Virus record (IMG/VR): IMGVR_UViG_3300027880_000021
Location: 1-24,715 of that record
Length of the DNA stretch: 24,715 nt
Origin: a virus
Reading direction: 5' to 3' (one strand)
Shown: one piece after another, positions 2,830-22,402 of the stretch
Numbering within the stretch: the first letter of the stretch is position 1
How the letters are laid out: the number at the start of each line of letters is the position of its first letter
Notes under the pieces: model-generated
Seen by the model: only the letters and a program-made list of their open reading frames with translations
Told to the model about the DNA's origin: nothing
The model's database searches: none
Made by a program: the position numbers and the translations under genes

Positions 2830-2897
2830 GGACGGCGCTCGTCGAGCGTCATCGCAGGTCAGCGCACGTGAAGCGGCGGAAACGTCCTTCTCCGGGC

Positions 2898-2936
2898 GAC
2901 AGGGATTCAGGCAAGTCTCTTGACAAGATTCCTGTT
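2898..2936. promoter_or_regulatory. Head-to-head operator-like pair upstream of integrase
   Basis: TCTTGACAAGATTCCTGT on the plus strand at 2918-2935 is a perfect 11-bp dyad (TCTTG-A-CAAGA) followed by CCTGT. Just upstream, 2898-2915 carries a degenerate minus-strand copy (CTTGCCTGAATCCCTGTC). The pair lies 22 bp before the chosen integrase start and inside the unused N-terminal extension of that frame, which argues that this stretch is regulatory rather than coding. Confidence 0.5.
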
Positions 2937-2957
2937 ACCCGAGGAGGATGTTTCCCG

Positions 2958-3872
2958 ATGAGCGGCTATCCCCCACTCGAGGAGCTGATCCGGGCGTTCC
3001 GTGCCCACGAGCGACGCTGCGGCGACGGCGACTGGACGATCGGCCAACGGATCGCCCAGGTCCGCGCCCTGGCCCGCGACGCCGAGCCCCGCCACGTCCT
3101 CGAGCTCGACACGTTGGACCTGGAGGAGTGGCTGGACGGACGGCGAGGCCGCCGAGGCCGGCTCGCCCCCGGCTCCCGGCACACGTACCGCAGCCACCTC
3201 CGGGCGTTCTATGGGTGGGCCCAGGGCGCCGGCCAGGCCAAGTCGAACCCGGCGGCCGACCTCGTCGACCCGAAGGTGCCCCGGCGCCTCCCCCGCCCCG
3301 CCGACGACGCGGTGGTGGCCGAGGCCATGGACCGGGCCGACGACCGGATGCGGGCATGGCTGGCACTCGGTGCCTACGAGGGCCTGCGCTGCGTCGAGAT
3401 GTCCCGGCTGACCCGCGAGGACATCTCGATCCCGGACATGACGCTCCGCGTGGAGGGCAAGGGCGACAAGGTCCGCTACGTGCCGCTGCACCCCGAGACA
3501 CTCGAGGCCCTGCGACGCCATGGCCTGCCGCGCTCGGGCCCGGTGTTCACTCGGCAGTGGCTCCTGGACGGCCGGGGGGCGGCACCGCTGCACCCCCAGA
3601 CGATCAGCCGCTACATCAACCTGCACCTGCCGCCGGGCACGACGGCGCACCAGCTGCGCCACTGGTTCGGGACGCACTTCTACCGCGAGGAGCGGGACAT
3701 CCTGCTGACCGCCGAGGTGATGGGCCACGCCAACATCAAGACGACCGAGGGCTACGCGGCGGCGGACACGACCCGGGCGGCGGCGGTGGTCGCCAGGTTG
3801 AGCGTGCGGCGGCCACCGGCAGCGTGGGATCTGTCAGCGCTGGACGAATCCGACCAGCAACTTGCGCACTGA
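2958..3872 (+). CDS. int: Tyrosine-family site-specific integrase
   Basis: 304 residues from the ATG at 2958, which follows GAGGAGG at 2941-2947. The frame is open 30 codons further upstream, but that part covers the operator-like sites and lacks a ribosome binding site. Residues 1-105 form the N-terminal core-binding (SAM-like) helical domain. The catalytic domain shows Arg144 (EGLRCVEMSR), Lys168 or Lys171 (EGKGDKVRYVPL), His231-x-x-Arg234 (AHQLRHW), His257 (MGHANI) and nucleophile Tyr266 (TTEGYAAAD), a complete R-K-HxxR-H-Y set. It is short, like XerC/D-type and small phage integrases, and lacks an arm-type DNA-binding domain. It should catalyse phage integration and, with a partner, excision. 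No attP core could be identified by eye nearby. Confidence 0.95.
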   Translation: MSGYPPLEELIRAFRAHERRCGDGDWTIGQRIAQVRALARDAEPRHVLELDTLDLEEWLDGRRGRRGRLAPGSRHTYRSHLRAFYGWAQGAGQAKSNPAADLVDPKVPRRLPRPADDAVVAEAMDRADDRMRAWLALGAYEGLRCVEMSRLTREDISIPDMTLRVEGKGDKVRYVPLHPETLEALRRHGLPRSGPVFTRQWLLDGRGAAPLHPQTISRYINLHLPPGTTAHQLRHWFGTHFYREERDILLTAEVMGHANIKTTEGYAAADTTRAAAVVARLSVRRPPAAWDLSALDESDQQLAH

Positions 3873-9378: not shown

Positions 9379-9912
9379 TCACGCGCGGAGATCGATCCGA
9401 CCGTGAGCGACCTGGTCGAGGCAGCGGAACGTCAGACGGCGGTAGCCGTCGCTCTCGCTCTCGCTCGCGTCGATCTCGACGTCGTGGCACTCCAGCGCGG
9501 GGAACGGCACACCGGTTAGCCCGTCGCTCTTGACGACCAGCCCCCACAGCCGAGTGGAGATCGACATGCCGGAGTGCCGCGCCACTTCGTAGGCCCGGCG
9601 GTAGTCGTCCAGCGTGCCCGTGTGAGGCTCTCCCTCGACCAGGTAGACGAACGTCCGCGGTTCGGCCCACGAATCGACTTCCGCGGCGTACTCATCCCAG
9701 TAGGTCGCGTCATCGGGCCGGCCTGCCTCGCGGCGGACCTGGGCGCGCCGGCGAGCCTCGTCGGCCGTGACGTGGCAGCCGTGGTCGCGTTCGTGGCGGG
9801 CGTCGCGCTGTGCCCCCTCGGCGCGGTGGTGCTCGCGGTTGTGGGTGACGGGCTGGTCGAAGACAGGATCGTGCAGCGTGTCGAGATGCTCGCGGTAGTC
9901 GTGGTCGCTCAT
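9379..9912 (-). CDS. First gene of minus-strand operon, hypothetical
   Basis: 177 residues from the ATG at 9912-9910, with GAGGAGAGCAACC directly upstream; an ATG nine codons earlier precedes that signal. The N-terminal third is rich in His, Asp and Arg (SDHDYREHLDTLHD, REHHRAEGAQRDARHERDHG). The remainder alternates strands and helices (RTFVYLVEGEPHTGTLDDYR, SISTRLWGLVVKSDGLTG). Being first in a twelve-gene operon behind an operator-like palindrome at 9931, it is probably expressed early. The function is not recognisable. Confidence 0.62.
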   Translation of the reverse strand: MSDHDYREHLDTLHDPVFDQPVTHNREHHRAEGAQRDARHERDHGCHVTADEARRRAQVRREAGRPDDATYWDEYAAEVDSWAEPRTFVYLVEGEPHTGTLDDYRRAYEVARHSGMSISTRLWGLVVKSDGLTGVPFPALECHDVEIDASESESDGYRRLTFRCLDQVAHGRIDLRA

Positions 9913-9930
9913 GGTTGCTCTCCTCATGCT

Positions 9931-9948
9931 TCTTGACAAGACATCTGT
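9931..9948 (+). promoter_or_regulatory. Operator-like palindrome upstream of minus-strand operon
   Basis: TCTTGACAAGACATCTGT holds the perfect 11-bp dyad TCTTG-A-CAAGA followed by a CTGT tail, matching the site at 2918. It lies about 19 bp before the start codon of the operon's first gene, where a bound protein would block transcription into all twelve genes. Confidence 0.5.
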
Positions 9949-10342
9949 GACGTACTCTCACATGGCGTGACCTGGGAAGTCAAGGTAGGTAACGGCGTTA
10001 ACCTGAGAAATCCGGGCCAGGCTGAGCTCGCCTCGAGCCCTATCCGGAGGGGGAAGGGCATCGGCGCATGGTGACTAGCTGGCACTCTCACCGCGATAAG
10101 TGATGCGCGTGCATTAATCTGGCCCACACACCGTTCCGTATTGCGGCGCGAATACAGAATGTGCAGGTCAGAGCCCTAATTTCGCGCATCGCGAGCGCTT
10201 GCTAGCCCGAGTTAGCGCGCATCACGGCGGATTTCGGGGCCGCTCGGTGTCGTCCGACCCCCCACTGTGCCGACCCCGGGCCCCCTCCCCCACCCATGGG
10301 GTCGCCTCACGGATGCGCGCTACAACATGGCAACTTACTTGG
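9949..10342. other. Gene-free divergent region
   Basis: About 400 bp lies between the divergent starts at 9912 and 10357 with no convincing gene. The short ORFs crossing it lack start signals. It must hold the promoter of the minus-strand operon; a possible minus-strand -35 is TTGACT (plus-strand AGTCAA at 9978-9983), without a good -10. Also seen: TAACGGCGTTA (a 4-bp dyad), an imperfect dyad GTATTGCGGCGCGAATAC at about 10137-10154, and a C-rich tract near 10258-10295. No tRNA or terminator was found. Confidence 0.5.
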
Positions 10343-10348
10343 CATAAT
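10343..10348 (+). promoter_or_regulatory. Candidate -10 box for leaderless RHH gene
   Basis: CATAAT (five of six consensus bases) ends 8 nt before the ATG at 10357, so transcription should start at or just before the start codon. No Shine-Dalgarno sequence is present. No good -35 box is seen upstream. ACTTGGCA, which shares the first half of the operator core, overlaps the -10 directly. Confidence 0.5.
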
Positions 10349-10356
10349 AGTTGTCT

Positions 10357-10524
10357 ATGCCCCGTCCGAAGACGACGACCCACCGCGACCGCGAGGTCGC
10401 CACCTACCTGAACCGCGCCGAGCTCGCCAAGCTCGACGTCAGCGTCAACCGCGCCGGCCTGACCAGGTCCGCGATTCTGCGCATCGCCCTGCTCGAGTAC
10501 CTCCAGCGCCGTGCCGCGGCATGA
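10357..10524 (+). CDS. Ribbon-helix-helix (CopG/Arc-like) DNA-binding protein
   Basis: 55 residues: a short basic arm (MPRPKTTTHRDR), a strand (EVATYLNR), helix A (AELAKLDVSVNRAG), the turn LTRS, and helix B (AILRIALLEYLQRRA). This is the standard layout of CopG/Arc/ParG-type dimers, in which the strand pair enters the major groove. The length fits a minimal RHH repressor or partition protein. It appears leaderless behind the -10 at 10343. Directly after its stop begins a cluster of dyad repeats with TTCCG/CGGAA arms spaced 12 bp start to start, the kind of array such dimers bind. Autoregulation or a centromere-like role is inferred. No ParA- or ParM-type ATPase gene is visible. Confidence 0.78.
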   Translation: MPRPKTTTHRDREVATYLNRAELAKLDVSVNRAGLTRSAILRIALLEYLQRRAAA

Positions 10525-10525
10525 G

Positions 10526-10687
10526 AACTTCCGGCTTCCACGGAATAGGGGGGAACCCCGAAACTTCCGGCTTTCGCGGAATAGGAGTTGATCTCTATTC
10601 CGCAGAAGCCGGAAGTTCGGCCGCTCGGGCCGTCCCGTGACGCACACGAAGAAGCCGGAACTTCCTATTCCGCGAAAGCCGGAATTT
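10526..10687. repeat. Cluster of 24-bp dyad repeats (two direct, two inverted)
   Basis: Four near-identical copies occur at 10526-10549 and 10562-10585 (plus) and at 10595-10617 and 10664-10687 (minus). Each has the inner dyad TTCCG-N7-CGGAA, flanked by AAC on one side and TAGG on the other. The arms are identical in all copies, while the 7-bp centre varies (GCTTTCG, GCTTCCA, GCTTCTG). An extra CGGAA half-site at 10656 continues the 12-bp phase into the last copy (10656, 10668, 10680). Copies two and three can fold into a 23-bp near-perfect hairpin. The last copy lies inside the start of the next gene. Confidence 0.85.
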
Positions 10688-11428
10688 CCATGGGAGGACG
10701 ACACCCTCACAGCCCACCGCCAGGGCTGCCGGCGCTTCATCGAAGGCGTCACGCGCGGGGCGTTCCGCATGATCGCCACCTACCGCAACACCTGGGCCTG
10801 CCCCGGCTGCCGACACTGGCGCATCCGGCAGACCACGCGACGGGTCTACGACCAAGCCGCCCGCGACAACCTGTGGCTCGGGCCGATCGACGACAAGGCC
10901 CGGGACGCGGCGACACGGCTCGCCCGGCTCCATGGCGTCAACCACGTCTACGTGCGACGCACCGACCTCCCCTACCTGTTCCTCGCGGAGTCCAACCTCC
11001 GGCCCCGGGGACGCGAGCTCCAACTTCTCCCGCTCCTCGAGGCGCTCGAACTCTGGGAGCAGGAAACAGTCCGGGGCGCGGTCGAACGGGTCACAGCCTG
11101 CAAGGCATGGCGCTGGCGCATCGACCAGCACGACACCGACTGGATCACGGCGCAGATCGGACGGCCCGACCGCCTCGTCGTCGCCCGCTACCTTGCCGGC
11201 TTCCCGGACCGTCAGCTCAACGGGGTCCAGGAGGAGATCGCCGTCGCGCGCTTCATCGACGCCTACGAGGAGATCGCCGACCTCGACGACGACGACATCA
11301 AAGAGCTCCGCGGGCTGCTCAACGAGGTCCCCGCGGAGCGGCTCCTCGACCACGACATGCCCGCCTGGTCGACCCGCTCCGGCCAGCTGATCCTGAATCG
11401 TGCCCGCCGCCTCGCGGAAGGAACCTAG
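10637..11428 (+). CDS. CxxC protein of unknown function, possible replication or partition partner
   Basis: 263 residues from the GTG at 10637, the only usable start before the upstream in-frame stop at 10589; no ribosome binding site is visible. Codons 6-17 lie in the dyad repeats, which therefore encode the KPELPIPRKPEFP leader. A CxxC knuckle at Cys55-Cys58 (TWACPGCRHWRIRQ) is followed by basic residues and helices, then a strand (VNHVYVRRTDLPYLFLAES). The C-terminal part is acidic and helical (ADLDDDDIKELRGLLNEVP). The CxxC plus basic helix recalls small zinc sites in replication initiators, and the repeats recall iterons, but no HUH, helicase or primase motif is seen. Rep-like function is only a hypothesis. 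Confidence 0.65.
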   Translation: MTHTKKPELPIPRKPEFPWEDDTLTAHRQGCRRFIEGVTRGAFRMIATYRNTWACPGCRHWRIRQTTRRVYDQAARDNLWLGPIDDKARDAATRLARLHGVNHVYVRRTDLPYLFLAESNLRPRGRELQLLPLLEALELWEQETVRGAVERVTACKAWRWRIDQHDTDWITAQIGRPDRLVVARYLAGFPDRQLNGVQEEIAVARFIDAYEEIADLDDDDIKELRGLLNEVPAERLLDHDMPAWSTRSGQLILNRARRLAEGT

Positions 11429-11429
11429 A

Positions 11430-11981
11430 ATGAGAACCATGTGGGAGACCGCGACCCCACTGCTCGACTGCGACGCCGTGGGCTTCTACCGCCGGATGGA
11501 CGACGACGACGAGCTCAGCCTCCAGGTCTTCTACGTCCAGTGGAACCGGGGTCACACCGGCCGCTACGCGCAGCTCATCACCCCGGGTTCGTGGCGCGAC
11601 CGCTCCGACGGCGAGCGCTACCACAAGCTGCGGCTCCACTACGACGCCGACATCTCGCGGGACGCGCTGCGCAACCTGTCGACCGCCGACCGGTTCCCCA
11701 TCGCCTCCGCGCTGCGCTTCTTCGCGGCACACGGCCCGTTCGAGCGGTGCATGTTCTGCAACCGGCCCCTCGAAGAAGACCTCGTACGCGGCCTCGGCCT
11801 CGGGGTCCACTGCGCCCGCAAGCGCCTCGGCGTCGGCCGCAGGTTCCTCCAGGTCGTCTGGTCGCGGACCACGCCGCCCCCGAACGGCGGCCAGCCGGTC
11901 CGGCCCCCGAAGCGCCAGCAGGCCGAGGCACCACAGCGCCACCTCCAGCTCGTCGCAGTCAACGGCCGCCGGGTGGCCTGA
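11430..11981 (+). CDS. Phage protein with DUF6011-like zinc motif
   Basis: 183 residues from the ATG at 11430, 7 nt after AAGGA and 1 nt past the stop of the upstream gene. The C-terminal half contains CMFCNRPLEEDLVRGLGLG followed by HCARKRLG. This is a CxxC pair, an R-P-L-x-x-x-x-x-x-x-G-x-G-x-x-C run and a final C-x-R/K, close to the pattern of the small zinc-binding DUF6011 family common in actinophages. The N-terminal half is beta-rich (SLQVFYVQWNRGHTGRYAQL). The tail is Pro/Gln-rich. DNA or RNA binding is plausible; the biochemical role is unknown. Confidence 0.7.
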   Translation: MRTMWETATPLLDCDAVGFYRRMDDDDELSLQVFYVQWNRGHTGRYAQLITPGSWRDRSDGERYHKLRLHYDADISRDALRNLSTADRFPIASALRFFAAHGPFERCMFCNRPLEEDLVRGLGLGVHCARKRLGVGRRFLQVVWSRTTPPPNGGQPVRPPKRQQAEAPQRHLQLVAVNGRRVA

Positions 11982-12006
11982 CAAGACCCCGCCGACATGA
12001 GATCAT
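11978..12006 (+). promoter_or_regulatory. Candidate promoter for leaderless 36-residue gene
   Basis: CTGACA at 11978-11983 (five of six -35 bases) is followed after exactly 17 bp by GATCAT at 12001-12006 (four of six -10 bases). This puts the start of transcription at about 12013, the A of the ATG. The -35 lies in CCTGACAAGACC, which resembles the operator core. Moderate to weak evidence. Confidence 0.4.
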
Positions 12007-12012
12007 CCCCCC

Positions 12013-12123
12013 ATGCCTGAGCTCGTCTGGGTCGCCCTCATCGTCCTGGCCGTCGTCGCCTGGGTTGCCTGGGTGCGCGACCACGACCGGCGTATGATCG
12101 ACGACGTCAAGCAGGGCCGGTAG
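12013..12123 (+). CDS. 36-residue single-helix membrane peptide
   Basis: The frame encodes MPELVWVALIVLAVVAWVAW, a single transmembrane helix, followed by a charged cytoplasmic tail (VRDHDRRMIDDVKQGR) and a TAG stop. There is no Shine-Dalgarno sequence, but a promoter-like pair places the transcript start at the ATG. The peptide could be a spanin- or holin-like or superinfection-related membrane protein; position just ahead of the virion genes is the only hint. The gene is short, so chance is not excluded, but the clean helix-plus-charged-tail design supports it. Confidence 0.5.
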   Translation: MPELVWVALIVLAVVAWVAWVRDHDRRMIDDVKQGR

Positions 12124-12154
12124 CGCCCTAGGCTGGGCCCCTGCGAAACCCGGT

Positions 12155-12210
12155 GTACGGCGTTCGGCTTCCTACGGGTTGCTCTCCTTTCGGGAGTCGA
12201 ACGCCTGTAC
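12155..12210. repeat. Long inverted repeat ahead of terminase
   Basis: GGCGTTCGGCTTCC at 12159-12172 pairs with GGGAGTCGAACGCC at 12192-12205 over 14 bp, including two G-T pairs. GTAC at 12155-12158 and 12207-12210 extends the stem by four pairs with one bulged base. The 19-nt loop contains GGTTGCTCTCCTTTC, which on the minus strand is the ribosome binding leader used at 7396. No T-run follows. It may be an operator, an RNA structure in a leader, or part of a packaging site. Confidence 0.55.
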
Positions 12211-12213
12211 CCT
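12208..12213 (+). promoter_or_regulatory. Candidate -10 box for leaderless terminase transcript
   Basis: TACCCT (TAnnnT type), preceded by TG, ends 7 nt before the GTG at 12221. No Shine-Dalgarno sequence lies near that start. The right arm of the inverted repeat overlaps this box, so folding or protein binding there could control it. The -35 position is unconvincing. Confidence 0.3.
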
Positions 12214-12220
12214 CGGCGAC

Positions 12221-14131
12221 GTGCCCTGGGCCACCGACCGATCCGGCCAGCCCCTCGACCAGATCGAAGGCTGGGGCATCGACGGCTACGACGACGTCAT
12301 CGCCCTGAGGGCCCGGCTGAAGCGCGAGCCTGACACCCCCGAATGGTCGTGGGACTACATCGCCCCGATCGGCCGGCCCAAGCGCGGCGACTACTACTCG
12401 GCCCAGCGCGAGGGCCTCACCGCGCTGGCGCGGCGCAAGATCGCTGACTCAGAACGCCGTCGCGCCGAGTTCCTGCGGGTGCTGTCCCAGTCCCGCACGA
12501 TCCGCCAAGCCTGCGAGACCGTCGGCATCAAGCCGGCGACCTACACGCAGTGGCGCACCCGCTACCCGGACTTCCGCAACAAGGTCGACCGCATCCGCCA
12601 CGGCCTGCCGGAGACCGAGGACGTCAACGCCGACTTCGTGTCGCGGCGCCGGTACTACTTCGGCTACGAGACCTACGTCCACCACCAGCTGATCGTCGAC
12701 GCCATGGACGACACCCCCGAGGGCGGGATCACGATAATCCTGCTGGCCCCAGAGGCCGGCAAGACGCAGCTGCTCACCGACGTGATCTGCGACTGCCTCG
12801 CTCAGGACCCCAACGAGCGCATCCTCTACGTGTCGGAGGCCGCGGCCGGCCACTCCCCCGCCATGAAGGTGCTCGGGGCCATCAAGGACCGGATGACCGA
12901 CCCGGACTACGTCGACCCCGACGCCCAGCACCCCACCCACATCCCCGAGTGGGTGAACCGGTTCGGCCCCTTCCGCGACGACACCCTCGACCGCGACAAG
13001 CCCTGGAACCAGAACTACATCAAGGTGCACAGCGCGGTCGGTCGACGGGACTGGAGCTTCCAGGCGTGCTCGTGGCGGTCGAAGGTCTACGGCGCCCGAT
13101 GCGACAAGCTCATCATCGACGACGTCCAGTCGATCGGCTCCCTCAACCTCACCGAGCAGATCGTCAACAACCTCCGGCTCACGTTCTTCACCCGACCTGG
13201 CAAGAAGGGCAAGACCTTCATCATCGGCACCCGGGTCGGCATCGGCGACGTCTACGAGCGGCTCGTCGAAGTCCTGCCTGACGAGGTCCTGCGCGTCGTC
13301 CAGATCCCCGCCCTCGACGAGGACGGCAACTCGTACTGCCCCGAGATGTGGCCCGACGACGCGCTCAACATCAAGCGGATGGTCGTCGGCGAGGTCATCT
13401 GGGCGACCGGCTACATGATGGCCCCGCTGTCCGCCGGCGCGAACACCTTCACCGAGGAGATGCTCAACGAGGTCCGCGACCCCAGCCGGGTGTACGGGAA
13501 GCGCCTCGACGTCGCCGTCTCCCTCACGCTGGCCAGCCTCGACCCGGCCCTTGGCGGCGGCAACGCGCTCATCTGCGCCCAGACCACCCAGGCCCGCTTC
13601 AACGTCCTCGCCGCGAAAGTCAGCTACGGCCTGGCCCGCAACGAGGACATCCTCGAGCACATCCGGATGCTTGCCTACCTGCGGTTCAGCGAGCTCGTCG
13701 TGGAGCGCAACAGCCAGCAGCGCGGCCTCGCCCGGGACCAGCGCCTCCGCGACATGGCCAAGCTGCTCGGGTTCAAGATCGTCGAGCACGAGACCGGCCA
13801 GAACAAGTGGGACTTCATCTTCGGGGTCGGCGCCATGGCCTCGAGCTTCATCCTGCGGGAGATCACCTTTCCCGACGGCGACGACGAGTCCCGCCGACTG
13901 ATGGAGCCGTTGCGTGCCGAGCTGCTGGCGTGGCGGCCGAACGTCGACCCCAAGCTCCTCCGCCAGGATCTCGTCATGGCCCTGTGGTTCGGCTGGTTGA
14001 AGTGGATGGAGCGCCGCAAGCGGGTCGGCCAGACGACCCGCTGGAAGGTCGGCGGCACCCCCTGGAAGCCCGGCGACATGACCGGGGCCTGGGCCCGCAA
14101 CGGACGACGCAGCCCGCTGGCTGTACGCTGA
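12221..14131 (+). CDS. terL: Phage terminase, large subunit
   Basis: 636 residues. The GTG at 12221 is chosen because the in-frame TTG at 12179 lies inside the inverted repeat and no ribosome binding site serves it. Residues about 83-125 form a helix-turn-helix (SRTIRQACETVGIKPATYTQ) of the kind found in small terminase subunits. The ATPase domain shows Walker A APEAGKT (176-182), Walker B LIIDD (297-301) and the motif III region FIIGTR (333-338). The nuclease domain starts at SLTLASLDPALGGG with catalytic Asp441, followed by ERNSQQRG. It cuts and pumps DNA into the prohead through the portal encoded downstream. No separate small terminase gene is seen, so the N-terminal HTH may supply DNA recognition. 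Confidence 0.93.
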   Translation: MPWATDRSGQPLDQIEGWGIDGYDDVIALRARLKREPDTPEWSWDYIAPIGRPKRGDYYSAQREGLTALARRKIADSERRRAEFLRVLSQSRTIRQACETVGIKPATYTQWRTRYPDFRNKVDRIRHGLPETEDVNADFVSRRRYYFGYETYVHHQLIVDAMDDTPEGGITIILLAPEAGKTQLLTDVICDCLAQDPNERILYVSEAAAGHSPAMKVLGAIKDRMTDPDYVDPDAQHPTHIPEWVNRFGPFRDDTLDRDKPWNQNYIKVHSAVGRRDWSFQACSWRSKVYGARCDKLIIDDVQSIGSLNLTEQIVNNLRLTFFTRPGKKGKTFIIGTRVGIGDVYERLVEVLPDEVLRVVQIPALDEDGNSYCPEMWPDDALNIKRMVVGEVIWATGYMMAPLSAGANTFTEEMLNEVRDPSRVYGKRLDVAVSLTLASLDPALGGGNALICAQTTQARFNVLAAKVSYGLARNEDILEHIRMLAYLRFSELVVERNSQQRGLARDQRLRDMAKLLGFKIVEHETGQNKWDFIFGVGAMASSFILREITFPDGDDESRRLMEPLRAELLAWRPNVDPKLLRQDLVMALWFGWLKWMERRKRVGQTTRWKVGGTPWKPGDMTGAWARNGRRSPLAVR

Positions 14132-14137
14132 CCGCAC

Positions 14138-14155
14138 TCTTGTCAAGAGACCTGG
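14138..14155 (+). promoter_or_regulatory. Operator-like palindrome in the late operon
   Basis: TCTTGTCAAGAGACCTGG contains the perfect 11-bp dyad TCTTG-T-CAAGA followed by CCTG. It starts 6 nt after the terminase stop and ends within 10 nt of the next start. In this short gap, in the direction of transcription, a bound repressor could halt polymerase. It is the only copy found inside the virion block. Confidence 0.5.
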
Positions 14156-14164
14156 GAGGTCGCC

Positions 14165-14290
14165 GTGAAGGTGAACCGTCGCAACTCGCCGACCCGTCGC
14201 AAGACGGCTCGGCCACGCCGCACCACCACCACCGCCCGGCGCTCGACGCGGGCGACCACCCGGACCGCGCGGCCGAGAGGTAGCTACTGA
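14165..14290 (+). CDS. 41-residue Arg/Thr-rich basic peptide
   Basis: The frame starts at a GTG, has GGGAGG 5 nt upstream, and ends in a TGATG overlap with the next gene. Its composition is extreme: about one third Arg and one quarter Thr, with no acidic residue (KVNRRNSPTRRKTARPRRTT). Such peptides bind nucleic acid non-specifically. A protamine-like DNA-compacting or packaging role between terminase and portal is conceivable but not shown. The ribosome binding site and coupled stop support it as a true gene despite its size. Confidence 0.6.
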   Translation: MKVNRRNSPTRRKTARPRRTTTTARRSTRATTRTARPRGSY

Positions 14291-14511
14291 TGGCGATTGA
14301 CCCGAACTCGCAGCACCAGCCGAACAAGGTCCGGCCCGCCCGCGAGCACGCCCCGGCCGGTCTCGTCAACGCGTCCCAGGCCGCGTCCGGTGGCCAGGTG
14401 GAGCAGCCGGGCGACGTGAAGCCCACCCCGTCGATGCGGCCCACCCACTCCAGCGGCGGTACGTGGCGCGGCCCGTCGGGCGCGAGCGCGGGTGATCCGC
14501 CGGCCGACTGA
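14290..14511 (+). CDS. Small disordered hypothetical protein
   Basis: 73 residues from an ATG in a TGATG overlap. It is rich in Pro, Gly, Ser and Gln (NSQHQPNKVRPAREHAPAGL, TPSMRPTHSSGGTWRGPSGA) and probably unfolded. No motif is recognised. The one-base coupling to both neighbours places it firmly in the late operon. Confidence 0.6.
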   Translation: MAIDPNSQHQPNKVRPAREHAPAGLVNASQAASGGQVEQPGDVKPTPSMRPTHSSGGTWRGPSGASAGDPPAD

Positions 14512-14807
14512 TGGGGCGCTACCGGAAGAAGCCGGTCGTGGTCGAGGCGATCCAGTGGCCGGCTGTCGCCGACGGGGTCCCGCCCGAGGTCGAGGAGTTC
14601 CTCGAGCAGCACGCGCCGCCTTCGCACGCCAAGTCGACCGCGCTCTACAAGATCGACGCAGTCGGCGAGCTGTGGATCTACGTGGTGAAGTCGGAGACGT
14701 TCTGCCACGTCGAACATGGCGGCTGGATCATCGCTGAGCCCGACGGCCGGGGCGTCTACCCCTGCACGGCGGTCGACTTCGTCACGACCTACGAGCCGGC
14801 CGACTGA
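14511..14807 (+). CDS. Small phage protein of the YRKKPVVVEAIQW type
   Basis: 98 residues from an ATG in a TGATG overlap. The opening MGRYRKKPVVVEAIQW is a well-known start of a family of small phage and prophage proteins. In these the middle often carries a W-I/L strand and the end a V-x-D-F-x-x-T-Y-E motif, both seen here (HGGWIIAEPDGRGVYPCTAV, DFVTTYEPAD). The family is soluble and without a proven function to my knowledge. Its position between terminase and portal may be incidental. Confidence 0.75.
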   Translation: MGRYRKKPVVVEAIQWPAVADGVPPEVEEFLEQHAPPSHAKSTALYKIDAVGELWIYVVKSETFCHVEHGGWIIAEPDGRGVYPCTAVDFVTTYEPAD

Positions 14808-17452: not shown

Positions 17453-20400
17453 GTGGGCTGGGGTCCGCTCGACCGCCTGCACGACGTGGTGACAGGTGTT
17501 GGAGGTGCCGTCCAGGCCCCGCTCGGTCTCGTCTGGGACCTGACCCGGGCGCCGTTCGTCGACGACGACGTCGACGGCATCCTCGGCACAATCAACGCGA
17601 CGACGATGTCCCGGACCGGCCAGCTATTCGGCAACCTGCTCGGCCCCCAGGAGGGCCTCGGCGCCGTCATCGGCGGCATCCCCGGCCGGGAGCACCTCCG
17701 CGGCCCCGTTCACGGCATCCAGACGGGCCTCGAGACCGCCTACCGGGAAGGCGTCGCCGAGCCCATCTCGACGTTCGCGACGGCGACGTCGCTCGCGTCG
17801 TCGCCCAGCTACCAGGAGGGTCGAGGTTCGCTCGAGACCCTGTTCGACCCCGACACCTGGCGGGTCGCCGACCACATCGCCGAGCATCGCTCCCCTGGCC
17901 AGGCGATCACCCTGGCGTTCATGGCGAAGGACATCCTCGACGAGGAGGAGGTCGAGCGCTTCATGGGCACGGACCTCTACCAGTCCGCGTCCGGGACCCT
18001 CGACGCGCTCGGCCGACTGTTCCTGTCCCCTGACGTCGTGGCGCTCAAGGCCGGCGGTGCGTACCGGGCCGCGAGCCTCGGCGCGGCACGTGGCGGCCTC
18101 CTCGGCAGCATCGCCGAACGGACCGCCCCTCAGATCGGTGAGCGCGCCGAGCGCCTCGGCCAGCTCGTCGAGAGCGGCTCCGGCGGCCGACTTCGCCTCG
18201 CCGAACGGATCACCGCCATCAACAACGCGATCGACCGCACCTACGAGCGGCTCCCCAGCGGCATCCAGGCGATCGTCGGGTCCGAGCGGGACTTCACCGG
18301 GGCCGACATCTCCCGACTGGAGCGGCTCGAGACCACCCGCCGGCAGCTCCGCACCGAAGCCCTCGCCGATCGGGCCCGGCGCTCCAGCGACCCCACCGAG
18401 ATCGGCGTCCTCCAGAACGTCGTCGAGAGCCGGCGTGCCAGCGAGGCCCGCATCGCCGCCGGGGAAGTGGCCGCGCCGTCAGCGTTCCGGGGCCGGCTCG
18501 CCGAAGCGCTCCGGGCCGACATCGACTCGTACTTCGCGGCGCCGCCCCGCAAAGGCGTCGTCGGCCAGGTGCTCAGCACGCCCGGCTGGCGGCGCGTCGA
18601 CGACTTCATCGAAACGCTCCCCACCGACGTCGACACCCGGGCCGGCCTGATCCGCGACCGCCTGTTCCCCACCCACCACCGCGGCGACATCCTGGGCCGC
18701 TACCTCGCCGAGGCGCAGGGCCCCGCCGAGCGGGAAGCCGTGATGCGGGTAGCGCTCGGCGACATGCGGGGCCTCGAAGCCCTCGGCCGCTCCAACTACG
18801 CGCTCGGCCAGCGGATGACGGACCTGATGCTCGACCAGGCAACCATCCGGGCCGAGCCCGCGGTCATGGCCCTCACGCCGCTCGGCGGCCGGTTCACCTC
18901 CCAGATGATGCGCCTCGTCGACCCCGACCGCGTCGACCCCCTCTATGCCGACTGGCGGAACTACAGCGAGCGGCTGTCCCGCATCGGCGAGGAGATCGAT
19001 GGCGTCGTCACCGAGCAGGTCCGCAACGAGCGGCTGGCCCAGGCGTACGGCTCGCTGCCGGCCGGACCGACCTTCGCCCGCGGTGAGCAGATCCGCAACG
19101 TCATCAAGTCGTCGTCCTTCTACCAGACGTCACGCGTGGGCAAGGCCGTCCGGCTCGTCAGCGACATGCGGCCTCACCACATCGTCAACGCCGAGGACTC
19201 GGCCGCCGACGCGCACCTCACCCGGATGATGCGCGAAGCCGGCTACGACGACATCGCGATGGCGCAGGCCCGGGGGCAGTTCATGGCCCTCGACCCCGTC
19301 CAGCGCGGCGCTGCCTTCGAGCGGTGGGTTGATCGGTCCGAGCGCCGCATCCTCGCCGACCACGGCCTCGACGACGACGAGATCGCCGAGATCCTTGCCC
19401 ACGCCCACCTCGGCCGCAACCAGGCCCAGTCCCTCATCCGGGGCGCCAAGTACGACGCCGAAGGCCGGGCCCGGGTCCGATTCCACGACGGCGACGAGAT
19501 GCTCGACATCGAGCTCCCGCTCAGCGTCACGCAGCTCCAGAACACCGTGGCGGTCCCGAACTTCCACCTGCTGCGCAAGCACGCCGCCCGCTACGCCCGG
19601 CTCAAGTACGGCGACGACTGGCGCTCGGCGATCACTCGGGGCGCCTCCCCGGCCTGGACCGCCAAGGAGTACGGGCTCGACGCCCTGCGCGGGGTCATGG
19701 AGGTCTGGCGGCCGGCGGTCCTGCTCCGTCCGGCGTGGACCCTGCGGGTCGTCGGCGACGAGCAGCTGCGCATGATGGCCAAGTTCGGCGCCCTGTCCGT
19801 CATGCTCGGCCACCGCGACGCCCTCCACAACTACATGGCGGCGCTCAAGGAGAACCCGATCATCCGCCGGGTGCTGCGCGTCGACTCCAACGAGCGGCTC
19901 GGCCAGCGGCTCTCCACCGTAGGGGCAGCCGCGGCCGGGGGCCTCGTCGCCGGGCCGTTCGGAGCGATGGCCGGCGGCGCGCTCGGCAACAAGCTGGTGC
20001 GGGCCATGGCCGACGTCGAGGAGGCCGGCTGGACGAACGTGCGCTTCGGCGGCCACAGCCTCTCGGGCCCCTTCGGCGACGCCGGCTCCTCGGCCGAGTT
20101 CTATCGGGCCCACGTCTCGGCACGTGGCGCCGTCGACGAGCTGTTCGGGCGGCACGAGAACCGGTTCCTCGGCGCGCTCAAGCGGGACCCCAGCCGCTAC
20201 CGCACCTACGTGTGGGGCGAGTCCGACCAGGCCAATGCTGTCTACCGGTCCGAGTGGGCCCGCAACCTCCGCTACCAGATCGGCCAGGACAGGATGGGCC
20301 GCCAGTTCCTCGCCGGCAAGTCCACCGACGAGGTGCTCGACTGGCTCGACAACACGATGGAAGGCAGGCGCTACGCGGCGATGGTGCCGTGGCGCTCCGA

Positions 20401-22402
20401 CCACCGGGCATGGGTGGAGGCGTACGCCAACCAGGTCGAGGCGTACACCGGCGGCATCGACGGGGTCAAGCAGGCGTTCCTCGATCTGTCCGAGAAGGCC
20501 GACGACGCCCAGGTGCAGAAGCTCCTCGACCAGATCCCCGAGGCGCGGCGCTCCCCCGTCCACGGCGCCGAGACCGAGCAGCTCCAGGCCCGCTCCCCTA
20601 TCAACCAGCTCATCAACGGCTTCGTCGACAACGCCTTTGAGATCCTCGGCACGATGGCCACCGACAGCCTGTCCCGCAACCCGACGTTCGCCCGGTTCTA
20701 CAACGCCGAGGTCCGCCGGCTGTTCTCCACGCTCGCCCCCGGCCAGGTGTCCGGCAAGCTCATCAACAACCTCGAGAACCAGGCCCGTGCCTTCGCGCTG
20801 CGCGAGACCCGCTACCTGCTCTACGACCTCGCCGAGCAGTCCGAGTTCGCTTCCATGACCCGCCTGCTCATGCCCTTCTACAACGCGTGGCAGGAGGTCC
20901 TCACCCGCTGGACCGGCCTGGCGATCGAGAACCCGCTGTTCATCGCTCGAGCCAAGGAGGTCTGGCAGGCGCCCGACCGGCTCGGCTGGACCTACACCGA
21001 CGACCGGGGCAACAACTTCCTGCGCATCCGCATCCCCGGCTTCGCGAAGGCCCTCGTCAACCAGGGCGTGTTCCACTCGGCGCTCGACAGCCAGGGCTAC
21101 ATCTTCCTGGACAAGAAGGGCTTCAACCTCGTCGCGCAGGGCACCCCCGGCTTCGGCCCGATTGTGCAGCTCGGTGTCTCCGAGGCCGTGAAGGCCAACC
21201 CGTCGCTCGAGGACTCGGTCCGCTTCATCATCCCGTTCGGCCCGGTCTCCGGCCCCGTCGACGCCTTCACCCCGCCGTCGGTGAAGCGAGCCCTGGCCGC
21301 CAGCGGCAACGACGAGGGTGGGGCACGCGCCAACGCCCAGGCCCGCATCCTGGTGACGAAGCTCACCCAGATGCAGACCGGCGATCTGCCGATGGTTGAC
21401 TTCTCGGACCCGGCGGCCCGAGCCGAGTTCCTCGAGTCGGTCGACAAGGAGACCGACGCGTTCATGGCGCTGCGGATGTTCACCGGCTACGTCTCGCCGG
21501 TCGCCCCGCTCTACGAGTCGCCCTACAAGCCCTACATCGACATCTACCGGGCGCTGCGCGACGGCGACTACGAACTGGCCCGGCGGATCGGCGGCGAGTT
21601 CGACGTCCCCGGGGTCCAGGGCCTCCCTGCCGAGCCGGCCGCAGGTGATCGCGCCAACACCGCCGACGACGTGTTCCTCAACACCTTCGGCGAGGAGTAC
21701 TTCGCTCTCACCCAGGCGTTCACCGAGTCGGTCAACGGGGTGCCGCCCACCGTGGAGGGCCTCGAGGCCAGCGAACGCTACGGGGACCTCATCACCGCCT
21801 ACCCCGAGTGGGGCGGGGTCATCGCCGGCTACGACGGCGGCGGCACCGCGGCCCAGTTCTCCCGGGCCGTCTACGACCGCCAGATGGCCCGGGGCGAACG
21901 GCGCCGGCTCGAACCCGACGAGATCCTCGACGGCCCCCAGATCCGGCTCGGCTGGGCCCAGTACTCGCGACTCTCCGACCTGCTGGAGACCGTGCGGGTC
22001 GCCCGGGGCCTGCCGAACATGCAGGTCAAGGCGGCCGAAGACCTGCGCCTCATCAAGGACGCGATCGTCACCTCGCTCGCCGCGAAGTATCCGGCCTGGT
22101 ATCAGGAGTACGCCGTCACCGATGCCTCGAAGTGGCAGACCCGCATCGAAGGCGCCCGCGCCCTCACCACCGAGGACAGCCTGTCGGGCCGCCCCGACAT
22201 CGCCGGCCTCGCCGAGTACCTCCGGATCCGCGACGCGATCTCGGCCGTGTTGACCGTCCGGGAGTCGCACAGCCTCGACTCGACCGCGAACCAGGACATC
22301 GCGCTGATGTGGCAGTCCGCGGTCGGGGCCCTCGTCGAGCGCAACCCCGAGTTCGCCGATCTTTACTATAGAAAGTTGGAGCATGACCCTGTTGCCGCTT
22401 GA
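17453..22402 (+). CDS. Very large virion protein, possibly internal or ejected
   Basis: 1649 residues from the GTG at 17453, directly after the preceding TAG. The product is largely helical, with charged helices throughout. It has a Gly/Ala-rich hydrophobic stretch at about 822-850 (AAAAGGLVAGPFGAMAGGAL) that could insert into a membrane, and a segment near 1132-1165 (SMTRLLMPFYNAWQEVLTRW) resembling the PF-N-A motif of large phage polyvalent or internal proteins. Size and place before any tail gene suggest an internal head protein ejected with DNA; a tape-measure role is less likely here. No polymerase, protease or lysozyme motif was found. The last 14 or so codons change codon use abruptly where the HNH gene begins, so the original C-terminus may be altered. 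Confidence 0.7.
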   Translation: MGWGPLDRLHDVVTGVGGAVQAPLGLVWDLTRAPFVDDDVDGILGTINATTMSRTGQLFGNLLGPQEGLGAVIGGIPGREHLRGPVHGIQTGLETAYREGVAEPISTFATATSLASSPSYQEGRGSLETLFDPDTWRVADHIAEHRSPGQAITLAFMAKDILDEEEVERFMGTDLYQSASGTLDALGRLFLSPDVVALKAGGAYRAASLGAARGGLLGSIAERTAPQIGERAERLGQLVESGSGGRLRLAERITAINNAIDRTYERLPSGIQAIVGSERDFTGADISRLERLETTRRQLRTEALADRARRSSDPTEIGVLQNVVESRRASEARIAAGEVAAPSAFRGRLAEALRADIDSYFAAPPRKGVVGQVLSTPGWRRVDDFIETLPTDVDTRAGLIRDRLFPTHHRGDILGRYLAEAQGPAEREAVMRVALGDMRGLEALGRSNYALGQRMTDLMLDQATIRAEPAVMALTPLGGRFTSQMMRLVDPDRVDPLYADWRNYSERLSRIGEEIDGVVTEQVRNERLAQAYGSLPAGPTFARGEQIRNVIKSSSFYQTSRVGKAVRLVSDMRPHHIVNAEDSAADAHLTRMMREAGYDDIAMAQARGQFMALDPVQRGAAFERWVDRSERRILADHGLDDDEIAEILAHAHLGRNQAQSLIRGAKYDAEGRARVRFHDGDEMLDIELPLSVTQLQNTVAVPNFHLLRKHAARYARLKYGDDWRSAITRGASPAWTAKEYGLDALRGVMEVWRPAVLLRPAWTLRVVGDEQLRMMAKFGALSVMLGHRDALHNYMAALKENPIIRRVLRVDSNERLGQRLSTVGAAAAGGLVAGPFGAMAGGALGNKLVRAMADVEEAGWTNVRFGGHSLSGPFGDAGSSAEFYRAHVSARGAVDELFGRHENRFLGALKRDPSRYRTYVWGESDQANAVYRSEWARNLRYQIGQDRMGRQFLAGKSTDEVLDWLDNTMEGRRYAAMVPWRSDHRAWVEAYANQVEAYTGGIDGVKQAFLDLSEKADDAQVQKLLDQIPEARRSPVHGAETEQLQARSPINQLINGFVDNAFEILGTMATDSLSRNPTFARFYNAEVRRLFSTLAPGQVSGKLINNLENQARAFALRETRYLLYDLAEQSEFASMTRLLMPFYNAWQEVLTRWTGLAIENPLFIARAKEVWQAPDRLGWTYTDDRGNNFLRIRIPGFAKALVNQGVFHSALDSQGYIFLDKKGFNLVAQGTPGFGPIVQLGVSEAVKANPSLEDSVRFIIPFGPVSGPVDAFTPPSVKRALAASGNDEGGARANAQARILVTKLTQMQTGDLPMVDFSDPAARAEFLESVDKETDAFMALRMFTGYVSPVAPLYESPYKPYIDIYRALRDGDYELARRIGGEFDVPGVQGLPAEPAAGDRANTADDVFLNTFGEEYFALTQAFTESVNGVPPTVEGLEASERYGDLITAYPEWGGVIAGYDGGGTAAQFSRAVYDRQMARGERRRLEPDEILDGPQIRLGWAQYSRLSDLLETVRVARGLPNMQVKAAEDLRLIKDAIVTSLAAKYPAWYQEYAVTDASKWQTRIEGARALTTEDSLSGRPDIAGLAEYLRIRDAISAVLTVRESHSLDSTANQDIALMWQSAVGALVERNPEFADLYYRKLEHDPVAA

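Follow-up and report, generated by a model that had tools for sequence, protein, structure and literature searches.

A ribbon-helix-helix gene, an array of inward-facing repeats and a putative zinc-protein gene form a conserved cassette in two uncultivated phage lineages

In arc-ant of phage P22, the first cistron encodes a ribbon-helix-helix (RHH) repressor of 53-55 residues and is followed by a larger regulatory gene. ParG and other centromere-binding RHH proteins recognise short repeats next to the genes that encode them. The iterons of the lambda O gene are repeated imperfect palindromes inside a gene, direct repeats within that of the initiator, and cos and pac typically have repeated sites in the neighbourhood of terminase genes. 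In pMV158 the RHH protein CopG autoregulates the copG-repB operon, and in R1 CopB represses a second promoter, which lies 3' of copB; in both copG-repB and copB-repA the small repressor gene is cotranscribed with, and lies directly 5' of, the gene it controls (PMC5717011). MobC, another RHH protein, exerts autoregulation of mobC-nic by binding to an imperfect palindrome (PMC4175270). The stoperators of Cluster A mycobacteriophages are asymmetric sites away from promoters, where the bound phage repressor blocks elongation; from one phage to another, site consensus and repressor have changed together (PMC6550527). The ESAS of Cluster K mycobacteriophages are 17-bp imperfect inverted repeats before translation starts, with a consensus that differs between subclusters, and were judged likelier to be DNA-binding sites than RNA hairpins (PMC3203893).

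The DNA analysed here (the window) is a 24,715-base IMG/VR virus record with 69% GC, probably a viral genome fragment. It encodes an AP2/HNH endonuclease, and a leftward block of small genes extends to about 9.9 kb. The rightward block begins with a cassette of an RHH gene, a repeat array in the order forward-forward-reverse-reverse-reverse (FFRRR) and the gene of a protein with a CxxC motif (the CxxC protein), followed by terminase, portal and lysozyme-domain genes. Judged by the systems above, each element of this cassette is covered by something known and the combination is matched by none. As in arc-ant, a small RHH first cistron precedes a larger gene; however, the operator bound by Arc is at the promoter, 5' of arc, and the window array lies between genes, and the CxxC protein is no antirepressor by sequence. 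CopG acts at the operon promoter, whereas the array lies after the RHH gene, and the genes downstream of copG and copB encode replication initiators, to which the CxxC protein shows no resemblance. We know of no multi-unit FFRRR array in either of these operons. Stoperators are many, genome-wide and mostly in one orientation, in contrast to the one FFRRR cluster beside the RHH gene. ESAS occur several times per genome, are tied to a 13-bp SAS and have no linked RHH gene described, whereas the window units overlap a coding start. The lambda O iterons are likewise repeated imperfect palindromes within a gene, but the window units are inverted and the CxxC protein has no initiator match.

The RHH gene (10357-10524, plus strand) encodes a CopG-type protein of 55 residues. 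A sequence-only reading of the window had called it an RHH protein, and its match to PF01402 (RHH_1; E 1.4e-5, 25.3 bits) exceeds the curated cut-off of 20.5. A single-sequence AlphaFold model (mean pLDDT 73, with the first 30 residues at 60-68) contained two helices and no strand. The start had also been described as leaderless-looking, which appears reasonable from the letters: a putative extended -10 promoter (TGG-CATAAT, 10340-10348, plus strand) would place the transcript start 0-2 nt 5' of the ATG at 10357. A stricter sigma-70 scan did not recover this promoter.

Exact TTCCG-N7-CGGAA was found four times in the 24,715 bases (at 10529, 10565, 10598 and 10668) and nowhere outside the array, against 0.024 occurrences expected in the window from base composition; the clustering is far beyond chance. 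The array unit is an asymmetric 24-bp sequence, AA(C/A)TTCCGGCTT-NNN-CGGAATAG(G/A), and its 9-mer AAGCCGGAA is present in five copies, all within one 163-bp cluster and in both orientations. Units F1 (AACTTCCGGCTTCCACGGAATAGG, 10526-10549) and F2 (AACTTCCGGCTTTCGCGGAATAGG, 10562-10585) lie on the plus strand, and the inverted units R1 (10595-10618), R2 (10641-10664) and R3 (10665-10688) on the minus strand. Four of the five are full; R2 is half-degenerate and retains AAGCCGGAA only, and R3 lies within the first codons of the CxxC ORF. The previously reported four repeats with an extra half-site thus correspond to the four exact motifs and to this fifth unit. The arms are invariant, as had been reported, but the centre is less variable than supposed, with only three free bases and an invariant GCTT beside the left arm. 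Units keep a 12-bp phase internally, and F1 stays in phase with F2 (36 bp), as does the half-degenerate unit with the last one (24 bp). Across the centre the half-sites are 21 and 46 bp apart, and the array is therefore not phased as a whole. A dispersed host repeat (REP/BIME) was considered and rejected, as CTTCCGGCTTNNNCGGAATA occurred as 65 stretches in 84,980 genomes, with one match each and scattered over phyla, although the true host is possibly not among them.

The CxxC ORF (10637-11428, plus strand) encodes an orphan protein of 263 residues, for which no match was found in Pfam, NCBIfam, PHROGs or PDB, Rep and initiator families included. GTG 10637 is the sole ATG, GTG or TTG in its frame before 10769. 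The first codons do lie inside the last repeat, as noticed earlier, and with this start they cover the last two units. Third-position GC is about 0.6 over the codons that overlap the array and 0.94 after them. A single-sequence structure model (pLDDT 38) was too poor to use. A weak PHROG match to a late activator (E 0.19) was taken as chance. Searches of 396 Actinomycetota genomes, of phage and plasmid records and of genome contigs gave no credible CxxC gene (profile searches of genomes were run without a positive control), and none of the cultured phages, plasmids and sequenced genomes searched carries one. A candidate relative in L006 was spurious.

Searches with single proteins recovered only L005, which is 99.8% identical to the window over 9905-14513, without a SNP between 10063 and 11700. 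It is the same phage and provides no test. To the left of this block L005 is only about 80% identical to the window, and it lacks the small gene at 14511-14807. Terminase alignments led to L129/L209, L208 and L210, with 60% terminase identity; among these the environmental contig L210 alone reaches far enough upstream. Its gene order is RHH gene, array, CxxC homologue, DUF6011 gene, one small ORF and terminase. The L210 RHH gene (202-354, GTG start; 50 residues) matches PF01402 (E 5e-10, 39.3 bits), and the two RHH proteins share 30% identity over 40 residues. The CxxC homologue (start 525 or 597, end 1298) is 31% identical to the window protein in alignment A4 and 32% over 193 residues by tblastn (E 7e-12). 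H27, C31, C55 and C58 are invariant in A4, and these four Cys and His residues form a putative zinc site, so that the CxxC protein may be a zinc protein. The DUF6011 gene of L210 (1302-1790) is above the Pfam cut-off. Its window counterpart (11430-11981, plus strand; PF19474, E 7e-4) is below it, is 37% identical to the L129 homologue and is a conserved cassette member.

The L210 array consists of ATGTCCGCTTT with a variable right half, in five copies and again in the order FFRRR. The gaps between the 9-mer anchors are 36, 41, 46 and 24 in the window and 67, 38, 45 and 105 in L210; the middle two agree (41/46 versus 38/45) whereas the outer two differ. In both phages the arms are spaced by 12 bp (TTCCG-N7-CGGAA in the window, TGTC-N8-GACA in L210), 9-11 nt separate the inner inverted pair and the array overlaps the first CxxC codons, with about 27 nt (window) or 17 nt (L210) from the last unit to the codons of the conserved HRxxC motif. 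Third-position GC is low over the array-CxxC stretch and normal afterwards in both, as if a DNA signal constrained the codons or translation began later. Shared ancestry of the two repeats (TCCG..TTTCG in both) was not significant, since 1298 of 20,000 shuffles reached their similarity on the same strand and 2286 did so on either strand. An FFRRR order would be matched by chance about once in 16, and the case therefore depends on parts, order, spacing and overlap recurring together. This comparison gives good support for a single module made up of RHH gene, array and CxxC gene. The compact module proposed from the window letters thus held up, its three parts recurring in order with FFRRR and the overlap of the CxxC start kept. 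Absence of the array beside homologous genes had been named as evidence against that proposal; an array is present beside the L210 homologues, with a different sequence. L210 also has a half-site, TGTCCGC, at 176, just 5' of the RHH start at 202, and a second motif, GGCACAAC with CCTGTCCG close by, at 163-182, before the RHH start, and again at 392-419, within the array.

Among 63 terminase-family loci, 54 of them with at least 1.5 kb of upstream DNA, the RHH-array-CxxC cassette was found only in L005 and L210. It is not a general part of the terminase family, being absent from L048, L125, L126 and L211 and from relatives with a 40-46% identical terminase. Either the cassette occurs rarely or its other relatives have diverged beyond detection. 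As far as gene order and repeat layout tell, it is a conserved, regulatory-looking cassette that is genuine in two uncultivated phage lineages. An array in L173 was rejected, as it consists of unrelated C-rich repeats. At L173:5116-5954, directly 5' of the terminase, a sigma-factor-like gene and two short ORFs, one RHH-like and one CxxC/CxxC, were seen by eye, a different set of small regulators at the equivalent position.

The same distribution makes it very improbable that the array is a packaging signal, that is, the recognition part of cos or pac, bound by the RHH protein, the CxxC protein or the terminase HTH. In both phages the array does precede the terminase, at a distance of about 1.5 to 2.1 kb. 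However, a comparable array is lacking from nearly all of the 54 loci with sufficient upstream DNA (the exceptions being L005, L210 and L173), the relatives with 40-46% terminase identity lack the module, and the terminase has a small-subunit-like HTH of its own. The large terminase of the window (12179-14131, plus strand; phrog_38, E 6e-41) is the next gene downstream, and its N-terminal HTH matches small-subunit families, which suggests a fused packaging protein. Its matches among cultured phages are mostly Streptomyces phages (23-26% identity), and two Actinomycetota genomes contain relatives (37-38%). The structural block includes a 1649-aa ORF (17453-22402) that is 33% conserved in L048 and has marginal family matches only. 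A weak PHROG match to a late activator (E 0.19) was taken as chance.

Iterons that overlap an initiator start would suit a replication origin with copy control, in which the CxxC protein is the initiator and the RHH protein limits its synthesis as CopG does for RepB. As copG does in the copG-repB operon (PMC5717011), the RHH gene immediately precedes a larger gene, imperfect-palindrome repeats overlap the downstream gene in both phages, and no other replication genes were recognised among the proteins scanned, though in a fragment their absence means little. The array regions are somewhat AT-richer than their flanks (GC about 0.6 versus 0.7), but a strongly AT-rich unwinding region is absent. 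DnaA-box-like sites (TTNTNCACA) are also absent from the window and from L210 1-1400, the CxxC protein matches no Rep or initiator family, and the cassette stands at the head of packaging genes. With no positive evidence for replication control, one of the roles first proposed for the locus, we consider an origin unlikely.

A partition site, with the RHH protein as centromere-binding protein of an extrachromosomal prophage, is extremely improbable, even though the repeats adjoin the RHH gene in both the window and L210. The sequence-only reading had noted that no ATPase partner was visible, and indeed no ParA- or ParM-like gene was found among the Pfam-scanned proteins of this fragment. The window also encodes a tyrosine integrase (2868-3869; PF00589, E 9e-18). 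In Cluster A mycobacteriophages an integrase marks the integrating phages and parA the extrachromosomal ones (PMC6550527). The missing ATPase and the integrase together disfavour the segregation role that had been suggested.

The inverted repeats could also act in RNA if the FFRRR order made the CxxC leader fold into long nested hairpins, with a block to translation or termination of transcription as the result. Folding of the window and L210 leaders is much stronger than that of shuffles (z -7.0 and -6.9), the inner inverted pair is closely spaced in both phages, and no Shine-Dalgarno-like stretch lies immediately 5' of either CxxC start. However, any inverted repeats fold, so strong leader folding is expected. 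Nested partners are no more alike or complementary than non-partners in either phage, the variable centres are not compensated, and no terminator-like U-run follows the window hairpins on the plus strand. An RNA switch is accordingly a decidedly improbable explanation. Fixed arms, a varying centre and nested partners without added complementarity argue for protein sites over RNA hairpins, the same argument that was made for the ESAS repeats (PMC3203893).

We prefer to read the array as an RHH operator array within an operon, which would control passage from the RHH cistron into the CxxC, DUF6011 and terminase genes, and regard this reading as about evenly balanced between right and wrong. We infer that the RHH protein binds the array and represses by doing so, and that the CxxC protein acts as a regulator downstream. 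As binders, RHH proteins are the obvious candidates: they are adjacent, belong to a DNA-binding family and, like the sites, have strongly diverged. Divergence of both repeat and RHH protein would be expected if the array had changed in step with its own binder, though with two independent examples it is a single comparison. The binder could instead be the CxxC protein, the product of the repressor-like HTH gene (2366-2767) or a host factor.

Under the operator reading, a leaderless first cistron would yield the 55-residue repressor, whose dimers would bind the five inward-facing 24-bp sites between the cistrons, reaching into the first CxxC codons, and several dimers probably cooperate there. 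Bound dimers would lower transcription of the CxxC gene and then of the DUF6011 and terminase genes, either as a roadblock to polymerase that started at the RHH promoter or by occluding a promoter too weak to be recognised by eye; no promoter was recognisable inside either array (by sigma-70 scan in the window, by reading in L210). With its operator 3' of its own gene, the repressor could remain on while the downstream genes are off. Autoregulation or operon control, as first suggested, remains the most economical reading, but, unlike in classical autoregulation, no window unit overlaps the RHH promoter.

The cassette is probably a real genetic switch rather than a single-genome curiosity, and its recurrence in L210 makes the finding no accident of one genome. 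More tentatively, and with somewhat more doubt than belief, we suggest that it is a self-contained switch in which a leaderless RHH repressor acts on five inward-facing sites reaching into the start of a zinc-protein family, site sequence and repressor specificity changing together and being private to each phage type while site number, order and central spacing are kept, and which controls entry into the packaging operon; switch and zinc-protein family would both be previously undescribed. If so, the layout would be unusual, with operators 3' of the repressor gene and inside the codons of the next gene, and with orientation and central spacing conserved though sequence is not. The two diverged repressor-array pairs would offer a ready test of how RHH specificity changes, and an orphan family with conserved Cys and His residues would gain its first context.

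TTCCG-N7-CGGAA was also found in 41 stretches of other viral contigs; none of those inspected is the same module, and several are coding repeats. In three unrelated viral contigs, TTCCGG-rich 22-bp repeats were seen by eye inside genes of winged-helix, replication-initiator-like proteins (L024:3166-3204, L028:325-363 and L045:5949-5987). Pairs of TTCCG-N7-CGGAA at a 22 bp spacing were present in GC-rich prophage-like contigs (L007:1856-1894, L029:11993-12031 and L036:10337-10407), those of L007 and L029 apparently outside the main genes.
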